Shown here: piece after piece, positions 60,390-64,000 of the stretch
Layout of the letters: each line of letters starts with the position of its first letter
How positions within the stretch are numbered: the stretch's first letter is position 1
Assembly (NCBI GenBank): GCA_001803225.1
Contig: MHBF01000093.1
Coordinates: 1-64,000 of the forward strand
DNA: 64,000 nt
Direction: 5' to 3'
Origin: Lentisphaerae bacterium GWF2_44_16
Lineage (GTDB): Bacteria > Verrucomicrobiota > Lentisphaeria > Victivallales > GWF2-45-14
Made by a program: the position numbers and the translations under genes
Notes under the pieces: generated by a model
Told to the model about the DNA's origin: nothing
Database searches by the model: none
The model's input: the letters and a program-made list of their open reading frames with translations, nothing else

Positions 60390-60723
60390 CTCTCTTCCGG
60401 TTGTTTTCAGACTTTTAGTTATCTATAATCTATATTTTACAGAACATACCATAACATAAGTCTCAACGGCAACCGTAAAAAACAGCCGACCTTGGCAGAC
60501 TAAACCTTATGGGTATTCCGGCATTCCGTTTTTCACGGCGCAATCGGAATAAATCCAATTTATATCATGGATTAAGGTTCCGCAAAAAGTCAACTAATAT
60601 AACGGTCAAAGTACTTTCTGCAAACAAAATGTGGAAAAATTTCAATTTTTGCGAAAACGCTATTGTTTTTTTGTTTAAGTTGTTCTATAATTGTCCTGTT
60701 GAAATACAAAAAGAAGATGACTT

Positions 60724-62103
60724 ATGACTGTGATAAAGGGACTTCTGAAAAGCAAGGAACTTGAAGACATTCTCAGGTCAGAGATAAAGAAACATCTCAA
60801 GCCGGGGGATTTCCTTATGCCCGAAATGCAGTTGGCTGAAAAATACTCCGTCGGAAGGATTACCGTCAGAAAAGCCGTAGAAGGCCTTGTCAATGAAGGG
60901 CTTCTTCAGAGAATACAGGGCAAGGGCACTTTTGTCACAAACCCACGGGAAAACAATAAAAGACTCAATATACTTCTTTCAAAAGGCTCGTTCCGGGGAT
61001 ACGAACCTCTTCCCGGTGATAATGAATTCCAGGCAAACGGCAGGAAGTGGAATGTAAACATAAACCTCCTGCAGGAACGCAGTGAGTTGGAAAACGATCT
61101 TCCGAAATTCTTTTCTTCCGAGGATATCGACCTGGTCTATGTTCATGAAGGGATAATCCAGTACCTCGCTAAAAACAGAATGGTTTTAAATCTGGATAAA
61201 TTCATTGAGAAATCAGGCGTTATAAGGAAAAACGATTTTGAACCCCATGCCATGAAAACATTTTTATGGAATAATTCCGCTTACGGCCTGCCCCTCTTTT
61301 ATTCCCCTCTCGTCCTTTATTATAATAAGGACATCTTTGACGCTTACGGCCTGCAATATCCGGACAACACCTGGAAGTGGGATGATATGGTCGAGGCTGC
61401 CTCAACGATGACAGGTGTAAATCAGAAGGTAGGAAAATGGAAGACTTTCGGGCTGGGCCTCTACCAGATAAATAAAAACCTGCTTGCCGCCATGGTGAGG
61501 CAGAACGGAGGGGATTTTTATGACGCGGAAGGAAAATGCGTCCTTGACAGCCCCGAAGCCGTCGAGGCCATGCAGTTCTGCTCCGACCTTTCAAACAAAC
61601 TCCATATAGTGCCGACGATACATTTCATAGACCAGAATTTTTCATTGAAGGAGATGTTCTGCAACAAATATCTCGGCATGTTCATCGGTTTTTATGATGA
61701 CTATGTATATCTGAAGGAAAATTTCAACGGCAGGTGGGATGTGGAGGAATTGCCCATGGGCAAAAGAAGGTCTTCCCCGCTTTCCGTTCAGGGCTGGGCC
61801 ATATCCTCAAAAAGCAGGAGGAAAGCCGAAGCCTTTGAGTTCCTTGAAAGTTTCTACAGAAATTTCAATAAAAAACCTTTCATCAGGTTTCTCACGAGAA
61901 TTCCGGCATACTCTTTTCCGTCGGGAATTCTGCCCGTGCCGTTTATCAGATCTCTCGAATACGCAAGGCCCGCGCATGATTCGCCGAAAAAATTTAATCC
62001 TGAAGAATTCCGCATGGGTTTCATAAATCTCTGGACGGGCTTTGAGAAAGCGGAGGATGTATGCAAAACATTTTGCGCCAAATTCAACAATGAAAGCGAG
62101 TGA
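60724..62103 (+). CDS. GntR-type HTH fused to ABC-type extracellular solute-binding (family 1) domain
   Basis: N-terminal LKPGDFLMPEMQLAEKYSVGRITVRKAVEGLVNEGLLQRIQGKGTFVTNP; C-terminal YGLPLFYSPLVLYYNKDIFDAYGLQYPDNTWKWDDMVEAAS...GWAISSKSRRKAEAFEFLESF. Confidence 0.88.
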   Translation: MTVIKGLLKSKELEDILRSEIKKHLKPGDFLMPEMQLAEKYSVGRITVRKAVEGLVNEGLLQRIQGKGTFVTNPRENNKRLNILLSKGSFRGYEPLPGDNEFQANGRKWNVNINLLQERSELENDLPKFFSSEDIDLVYVHEGIIQYLAKNRMVLNLDKFIEKSGVIRKNDFEPHAMKTFLWNNSAYGLPLFYSPLVLYYNKDIFDAYGLQYPDNTWKWDDMVEAASTMTGVNQKVGKWKTFGLGLYQINKNLLAAMVRQNGGDFYDAEGKCVLDSPEAVEAMQFCSDLSNKLHIVPTIHFIDQNFSLKEMFCNKYLGMFIGFYDDYVYLKENFNGRWDVEELPMGKRRSSPLSVQGWAISSKSRRKAEAFEFLESFYRNFNKKPFIRFLTRIPAYSFPSGILPVPFIRSLEYARPAHDSPKKFNPEEFRMGFINLWTGFEKAEDVCKTFCAKFNNESE

Positions 62104-62104
62104 C

Positions 62105-62746
62105 ATGAAAAAGGAATTCACGTTAATTGAGTTGCTCATTGTAATATCTATTATTGCTATTCTCGCATCTATGCTCCTTCCCGCCCTTTCCACGGTAAAA
62201 GCCAAAACAAGGGCGATGAAATGCTCATCAAACCAGAAACAGGTCGGCCTGGCCCTGAATATGTACAGCAATGATTTTAATGACTATACTTGCCCTAAGC
62301 TGACGTATGATAACAGTTATGCATGGTCAAAAATTTTGATTGATAATGATTATGTAACAAAATGTCTCCCTGAAAAAATATTTTCCAATTCGATATTGAT
62401 GTGTCCCGACGGTAAAGGTTCCAGTCACAAGGAAGACCGTTATTATGGAACATCTTTTGGACTTAATGGTTGCGTATCTTCAAGTTTTACGGTACCTCGC
62501 TGGTTTAAAAGAATTCAAATAACCCATCCCTCAACTGTAATACAAGCCATGGACTCCATAACTTACTGGGTTAGATTTTACGAGCCTACTTTTATTTTAT
62601 TCAGACATCTCGGCAAAACCAACATTCTTTTTTTTGACGGGCATGTCAATTCAAAGGACAGAAACCTGATTCCTATTGGTAGTATTGCCAGTATCCCCAA
62701 TGAAGTTTTTTATGAATGGTGGGGACCGGAAAGAAGCGGATGGTAA
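62105..62746 (+). CDS. Pseudopilin-like protein with H-X9-DG motif
   Basis: [60 protein letters not shown]. The track start at 62042 is inside the upstream gene; ATG at 62105. Confidence 0.9.
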   Translation: MKKEFTLIELLIVISIIAILASMLLPALSTVKAKTRAMKCSSNQKQVGLALNMYSNDFNDYTCPKLTYDNSYAWSKILIDNDYVTKCLPEKIFSNSILMCPDGKGSSHKEDRYYGTSFGLNGCVSSSFTVPRWFKRIQITHPSTVIQAMDSITYWVRFYEPTFILFRHLGKTNILFFDGHVNSKDRNLIPIGSIASIPNEVFYEWWGPERSGW

Positions 62747-62781
62747 AGGTACAAATTAACAATTACATAAAGAGAATAATT

Positions 62782-64000
62782 ATGAATGGTAAATTACTGA
62801 CTGCGCTGGGCATTTTTTTTCTGATCTGCGGCATTTCAAAGGGAGCGGCCGATATGGAGTTTTCGGCGCTCAACAATTATCCGGTCTTCAAACCGGAATA
62901 TACTGATATTTTCTACGGGAAAAAACCGCGCGTTTATCTGGACGGGGAATGGAGTTACAAGGTCTTTCAGTGTTCACAGAATGATTATGCCAAGACGGTT
63001 TCGGCTAATGCCGCATGCTTTGAAGGCGTGGGAACGGACTGGAAGAAGATGCTGATACCCAATTACGCGGACGCGTCTTACGGAAGCGAAAAAATCGGGG
63101 CGATCTTCCTTTCCCGTGATTTCACCATTCCTGAAAACTCTTCCGGCAAAAGGGCGGTTTTGACTTTTACCGGTATCGGTTGGTCGCCTACTGTTTATAT
63201 CAACGGCAAAAAAGCGGCGGAGTACCGCGACCTCCTGCCGGGCTGGCCTACGGAATTTTTCCAGACCGATATTACTCCGTTTCTCAAGCCGGGAAAAAAT
63301 GTGATTGCCGTCGCGCTCTTTAAATTCCGCAAAACCCAGCGCCTGTATTCCTCCGGGATTTTCAACCCCGTCTATATTGACCTTGTGGAACCTGTATATG
63401 CTGCGGAAACCCTTGTCAGTCCCTCTCTGCCGGACACCATCAATGTGAAAAGTTCCATCATTAATTCAACAGATAAAGATGTTCAGCAGGATCTAACGGC
63501 ACTTGTGGAAAACTGGAAGGACGGAGCCAGGGCCGCTTCCTTTAAAGTCGGCAACCGTACGTTTAAGCCCGGCGAGAACTCTCTGGATTTTTCCATAAAG
63601 ATTGAAAAACCCATTCTCTGGGATATAGAAAATCCACATCTTTACTCTTTGAAACTCTTTAATGGCGACAAGCTTATCGGTTGGGAACGTTTCGGCTTGA
63701 GGGAATTCAAGGTTTCCGGGCGTGATTTTATTCTCAACGGACGGAAAATCCATTGTTACGGGGTTTGCGCCGAGGAAGGAAGTATTTCCAGGCTGATGTA
63801 TGTGGAGGGACAGAATCCGCAGTTCCTGAACAATGGTGGCGATTGCCTGCGGCGTTACCTGAAAGTTTTAAAAGAAAATAATTGCAACAGCATAATGCGC
63901 TGGCCCGCTTTTACCAGGGTCTTAAATAACCTCGCCGATGAAATAGGGCTTCTCCAGTTTCACATGATACTGCCGGTAAAGATGTATGCCGACGATATGC
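62782..64000 (+). CDS. GH2-like glycoside hydrolase, secreted; truncated by window edge
   Basis: Not in the ORF track (runs off the right edge). MNGKLLTALGIFFLICGISKGAADMEFSALNNYPVF...AIFLSRDFTIPENSSGKRAVLTFTGIGWSPTVYINGKKAAEYRDLLPGWPTEFFQTDITPFLKPGKNVIAVAL...ILWDIENPHLYSLKLFNGDKLIGWERFGLREFKVSGRDFILNGRKI (GH2 sugar-binding and Ig-like domains). Confidence 0.85.
   Translation, partial: MNGKLLTALGIFFLICGISKGAADMEFSALNNYPVFKPEYTDIFYGKKPRVYLDGEWSYKVFQCSQNDYAKTVSANAACFEGVGTDWKKMLIPNYADASYGSEKIGAIFLSRDFTIPENSSGKRAVLTFTGIGWSPTVYINGKKAAEYRDLLPGWPTEFFQTDITPFLKPGKNVIAVALFKFRKTQRLYSSGIFNPVYIDLVEPVYAAETLVSPSLPDTINVKSSIINSTDKDVQQDLTALVENWKDGARAASFKVGNRTFKPGENSLDFSIKIEKPILWDIENPHLYSLKLFNGDKLIGWERFGLREFKVSGRDFILNGRKIHCYGVCAEEGSISRLMYVEGQNPQFLNNGGDCLRRYLKVLKENNCNSIMRWPAFTRVLNNLADEIGLLQFHMILPVKMYADDM

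Follow-up and report, generated by a model that had tools for sequence, protein, structure and literature searches.

The window analysed here, a stretch of 64,000 nucleotides from the genome of Lentisphaerae bacterium GWF2_44_16, carries towards its end a gene whose product joins a DNA-binding domain to what looks like the sugar-binding component of an ABC transporter. What might such a protein sense, which genes would it control, and is it a curiosity of a single genome? We addressed these questions by domain searches, structure prediction, inspection of the gene neighbourhood and comparison with related proteins.

Domain composition and predicted fold

The gene is an unbroken open reading frame of 459 codons that starts with ATG and lacks internal stops (Table 1). 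Pfam places a GntR match (PF00392) at residues 10-71 (E 6.4e-15, 55 bits against a cut-off of 27), which assigns the protein to the GntR superfamily and bears out the initial annotation, in which a winged helix had been read at residues ~1-75. The remainder matches the solute-binding protein (SBP) families SBP_bac_1 (PF01547, residues 118-375, E 3e-20, 73.9 bits against a cut-off of 26) and SBP_bac_8 (PF13416, residues 133-394, E 9e-18, 66 bits), and these matches were unchanged when the C-terminal 386 aa were searched alone. Together with an MBP-like fold, they identify a family 1 SBP domain. The earlier assignment of this region thus holds, with its boundary now set at residue ~80 through the C-terminus and the fold predicted to be complete. 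Sequence matches in the PDB fall on sugar-binding SBPs over residues ~100-422 and on GntR proteins over the first ~80 residues; none of the matches listed has both domains on one chain. The best 25 NCBIfam matches likewise include no model for the combination: matches of GntR models end within the first ~90 residues, those of transporter SBP models are confined to the remainder, and every one scores far below its cut-off.

Structure prediction, proposed beforehand as a check, gave a confident two-domain model. The AlphaFold2 model, made with an alignment of 50 relatives, has a mean pLDDT of 88.6 and a pTM of 0.83, with the helix-turn-helix (HTH) part and most of the SBP domain above 90; a linker at residues 91-95 is the sole segment below 50. 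The DNA-binding domain consists of helices 10-24, 34-40 and 45-57 and wing strands 61-64 and 68-71. In Foldseek searches the nearest folds to the model were oligosaccharide-bound SBPs, namely cycloalternan-bound Lmo0181 (5f7v; best match, E 4e-28, TMt 0.81), a beta-1,2-glucooligosaccharide-binding protein (5ysd; TMt 0.80-0.82) and the arabino-oligosaccharide-binding AbnE (6rjy; TMt 0.76). The three share their fold with the entire C-terminal part (TMt 0.76-0.82). They are exported and feed permeases, whereas the window protein carries a DNA-binding domain and has no signal peptide ahead of its DNA-binding helix bundle. Because the N-terminus is this bundle, the regulator is predicted to be cytoplasmic, in agreement with the initial annotation.

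Table 1. Features at the right-hand end of the window, with positions counted from its first nucleotide
Feature	Position	Strand	Evidence or remark
Intergenic region of 334 bp between a divergent prs-like gene and the regulator	60390..60723	.	Expected to hold promoter and operator site
GntR-SBP1 fusion regulator, 459 aa	60724..62103	+	ORF, Pfam, AlphaFold2
GntR winged-helix DNA-binding domain, residues 10-71	60751..60936	+	PF00392, AlphaFold2
Complete family 1 solute-binding domain, residues ~80-459	60961..62100	+	PF01547, AlphaFold2, Foldseek
YSP (family consensus FSP), residues 193-195, signature of the fused family	61300..61308	+	Conservation comparison
Type IV-pilin-like protein	62105..62746	+	N-terminal methylation motif, 'DUF1559'/SBP_bac_10 start
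GH2-like glycoside hydrolase, apparent signal peptide	62716..64000	+	ORF continues to contig position ~66099

The protein fits none of the known GntR sensor classes according to Pfam and NCBIfam, and its assignment to one of them was rejected. A UTRA or type I PBP domain, named in advance as the finding that would speak against the proposed architecture, was absent by Pfam, AlphaFold2 and Foldseek, and Pfam searches at E values up to 1 returned no UTRA, FCD, aminotransferase or Peripla_BP domain. Membership in the HutC subfamily is excluded by the lack of a UTRA match in Pfam, the NCBIfam HutC/PhnF matches spanning only residues ~11-84 and lying far below cut-off; membership in the FadR subfamily by the lack of FCD or FadR_C (Pfam); and membership in the MocR subfamily by the lack of an aminotransferase match, MocR models matching the HTH only. 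The AraR-type regulators are among the closest known systems, as they too join an N-terminal GntR winged helix to a two-lobed sugar-binding sensor, but that sensor is a LacI-like type I PBP rather than a family 1 SBP with an MBP-like fold, and Pfam finds no Peripla_BP in the window protein, although four sampled paralogues have one. SgrR of Escherichia coli combines an HTH with a family 5 SBP domain. It likewise acts in the cytoplasm as a transcription factor and uses an SBP-type sensor, yet it differs from the window protein in both its HTH and its SBP family, and no SBP_bac_5 or SgrR-type match was obtained by Pfam. A role as the SBP of an ABC transporter is at odds with an HTH as N-terminus and a neighbourhood without a permease gene.

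Gene neighbourhood and paralogues in the same genome

The opposite strand upstream carries a housekeeping block that we read from the open reading frames as rplI, ssb, pth and a prs-like gene. Scans of the intervening region for inverted repeats and sigma-70 sites yielded AT-rich arms only and no convincing palindrome or promoter. Downstream, the pilin-like gene starts with its ATG at 62105, 2 bases past the last base of the regulator, and is followed by the GH2-like gene. Beyond the window the contig continues with a GH28 gene, called without a signal peptide, and another pilin-like gene. The inspected neighbourhood contains no ABC transporter gene.

This order of regulator, pilin-like protein and carbohydrate-active enzyme recurs in the genome. 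Downstream of its other fusions we found GH20, DUF4838, PcRGLX rhamnogalacturonan lyase-like, CBM9 and beta-helix proteins. The pilin motif stands directly behind 41 of 97 GntR genes (~42%) vs 10 of 151 other genes (~7%), where the GntR genes are those with room to judge in the covered loci of this genome (n=97; L001-L030, L046-L063, L197-L264) and the comparison genes come from loci around fusions and free SBPs. Since the motif follows GntR genes so often, SBP1-type and LacI-type regulators share one operon position, and the AraR-like Peripla_BP_3 paralogues indeed occupy the same place as the window regulator. The pilin-like genes behind GntR regulators in this genome often precede a secreted carbohydrate-active protein. 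At L055:5650-8479 two divergent regulators of the GntR-SBP1 type adjoin each other, and each is followed by pilin-like genes and large proteins of the beta-helix type.

The initial annotation had called the window regulator unusual. It turned out to be no isolated case, for it is one of a paralogous family that extends beyond this genome to its phylum and to the Paenibacillaceae. The genome encodes 99 distinct GntR-HTH proteins, 14 of which (12 strong and 2 weak) also match an SBP profile derived from the fusions, the others comprising 78 proteins of 326-403 aa and 7 short ones. All four of the mid-length proteins that were sampled have Peripla_BP_3, a LacI-type sensor whose fold is of a sugar-sensing kind. 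As the SBP profile was built from the 12 strong fusions, Pfam serves as the independent test, and for 11 of these 12, the window protein included, it scores each of the two domains above cut-off; in the remaining one (L055:7085-8479) only the HTH is above cut-off. Identity of the paralogues to the window protein is 16-34%. Ten of the 15 SBP_bac_1 matches genome-wide lie in GntR fusions, while the other five comprise three loci of sugar-transport type and two that are PstS-like by sequence and neighbours, so that GntR-SBP1 fusions outnumber sugar-transport SBPs. A frameshift or misassembly artefact was rejected, the same architecture being present in 12 fusions of this genome and in many other genomes.

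Two further kinds of SBP gene came to light in this genome. ABC sugar transporters at L059:1180-6015 and L060:5882-10577 are built from two chimeric chains each. One chain joins an SBP to a permease (832 and 926 aa), and the other is a permease in which a stretch resembles GH42 (776 and 634 aa). A 690-aa SBP_bac_1 protein at L063:4717-6789 on the minus strand, with a weak, sub-threshold PDZ match, adjoins two permease-like genes.

Taxonomic spread and origin of the fused domain

A profile search of the phylum at E<=1e-40 gave matches in about 26 of 241 sampled genomes and 15 of 133 genera; the figure is a lower bound, with up to six candidates scored per genome, and approximate, as two of the weakest matches (L088 and L089) are free SBPs matched over the SBP part alone. 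In the Paenibacillaceae, matches at E<=1e-45 occurred in 84 of 105 genomes; of those listed, most begin within the HTH and some cover the SBP part only. A search of a plasmid collection of 72,556 records gave no full-length match. Scanning contigs of named genomes with a pattern from five paralogues returned one fusion among 84 SBP ORFs, a ratio that says little on the abundance of fusions because the pattern favours transport SBPs. The fusion found in this way, in Paenibacillus oceani (L173:4956-6329), belongs to a genome with about 36 full-length GntR-SBP1 fusions, 2 of them with an in-frame stop. Such Paenibacillaceae proteins have the architecture and length of the window protein, and their SBP domains group with most of its family. 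Unlike the window gene, they often adjoin free SBP lipoproteins or ABC permeases, and no pilin-like gene was noticed beside those inspected. At L265-L279 of P. oceani a lipoprotein SBP is found beside many fusions, along with a large secreted protein.

The initial annotation had further supposed that the sensor domain was captured from a transporter. If captures had been recent and repeated, each fusion would have taken its domain from a nearby transport SBP, and it is true that Paenibacillus fusions often adjoin a free SBP and that one long-branched fusion, L057, is placed among free SBPs. A tree of 101 SBP domains nevertheless puts the 55 other fused domains, drawn from two distant phyla, on the same side of one branch (SH-aLRT 96), with 45 free SBPs and L057 on the other. 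All 22 Paenibacillaceae fusions group together (support 95), the free SBPs neighbouring Paenibacillus fusions fall outside the fused group, and a tree in which all fused rows were constrained together was not rejected (AU p 0.376). This tree was made by a quick method, is unrooted, has some long branches and includes free SBPs picked by similarity to the query; a tree of the HTH only had too few columns to resolve origins. A fresh local capture is therefore not favoured, since the fused domains group across phyla and not with neighbouring transport SBPs, and we consider repeated recent captures improbable. Because all fused domains but one separate from the 45 transport SBPs, the sequences suggest that the fused domains of both phyla derive from one old regulator lineage.

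A more far-reaching proposal, to which we give even odds, is that GntR-SBP1 proteins constitute a large, separate and undescribed GntR subfamily of single origin, in which a whole family 1 oligosaccharide-binding protein was turned into a sensor inside the cell. The subfamily would have been exchanged between Bacillota and the phylum of the window and have expanded to tens of paralogues in a genome, every one of them matched to a single glycan and a single operon of carbohydrate-active enzymes (CAZymes). If this is true, sensing and not transport would be the main use of the family 1 SBP fold in some genomes.

Proposed function and meaning

We propose, with a probability of about 0.78, that the window protein is a one-component regulator in the cytoplasm that responds to oligosaccharides and controls its own CAZyme operon, here the one with GH2 and GH28. 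The proposal draws on the two domains in one reading frame, the resemblance of the model to oligosaccharide-bound SBPs, the tight gene order, the carbohydrate genes behind this and other fusions, the LacI-type paralogues in the same position and the neighbours of the Paenibacillus fusions; the absence of a convincing operator or promoter and of a transporter beside the gene weighs against it. The GntR winged helix, probably in dimeric form, would bind an operator close to the start of its own gene, and the family 1 SBP domain would close on an oligosaccharide or glycoside present in the cytoplasm, a ligand class that we infer. Lobe closure would alter the affinity for DNA, so that the operon of regulator, pilin-like protein, GH2 and possibly GH28 would be expressed, and the regulator with it, when the substrate is present. 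Judging from AraR and further repressors of the GntR superfamily, a repressor relieved by sugar is the somewhat favoured sign of control.

Conservation within the domain bears on this proposal in two ways. In the fused proteins S194 is found in 25 of 29 and P195 in 23 of 29, while in free SBPs serine occupies position 194 in 10 of 21 and proline is not the majority at 195; the FSP motif, P190, P344, P394, W217 and W219 are kept in the fused set. Conversely, Y122, K125, P135-D136, K202, D206 and Y212, near-invariant in transport SBPs, are under relaxed constraint among the fused proteins, which we read as release from permease contacts, although it may also mean lost or changed binding. The latter would agree with a domain that does not bind sugar and serves dimerisation or docking, the signal being, for example, a partner protein, and the strong divergence of the paralogues points the same way. 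Against this stand the complete, confidently predicted fold, the persistence of the family-specific residues and the expansion of paralogues beside varied carbohydrate genes, and we judge such a role unlikely. Less likely still is that the domain docks on the cytoplasmic face of an ABC transporter and reports its flux, in the way MalK sequesters MalT: permease binding is natural to SBP domains and many Paenibacillus fusions adjoin ABC components, but the permease face that SBPs contact is the outer one whereas the fused protein is cytoplasmic, the residues constant in transport SBPs are relaxed, and the window gene has no transporter nearby in a genome with only three sugar-type SBP loci.

For an oligosaccharide-responsive regulator, the large paralogous expansion next to different carbohydrate genes suggests diversification of ligands. 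The glycans bound by family 1 SBPs exceed in size those of the usual GntR sensor domains, so that these regulators could sense intact oligosaccharides inside the cell. Among the papers retrieved from an open-access library, in which few subscription journals are represented, titles and abstract openings describe no class combining GntR with a family 1 SBP, while domain databases very likely already list the architecture. GntR-SBP1 is apparently a widespread, unnamed sensor class within the well-known GntR superfamily. Naming it would aid the annotation of many regulators, the neighbouring CAZymes could tie each of them to a glycan, and the proteins could serve as natural templates for oligosaccharide biosensors.
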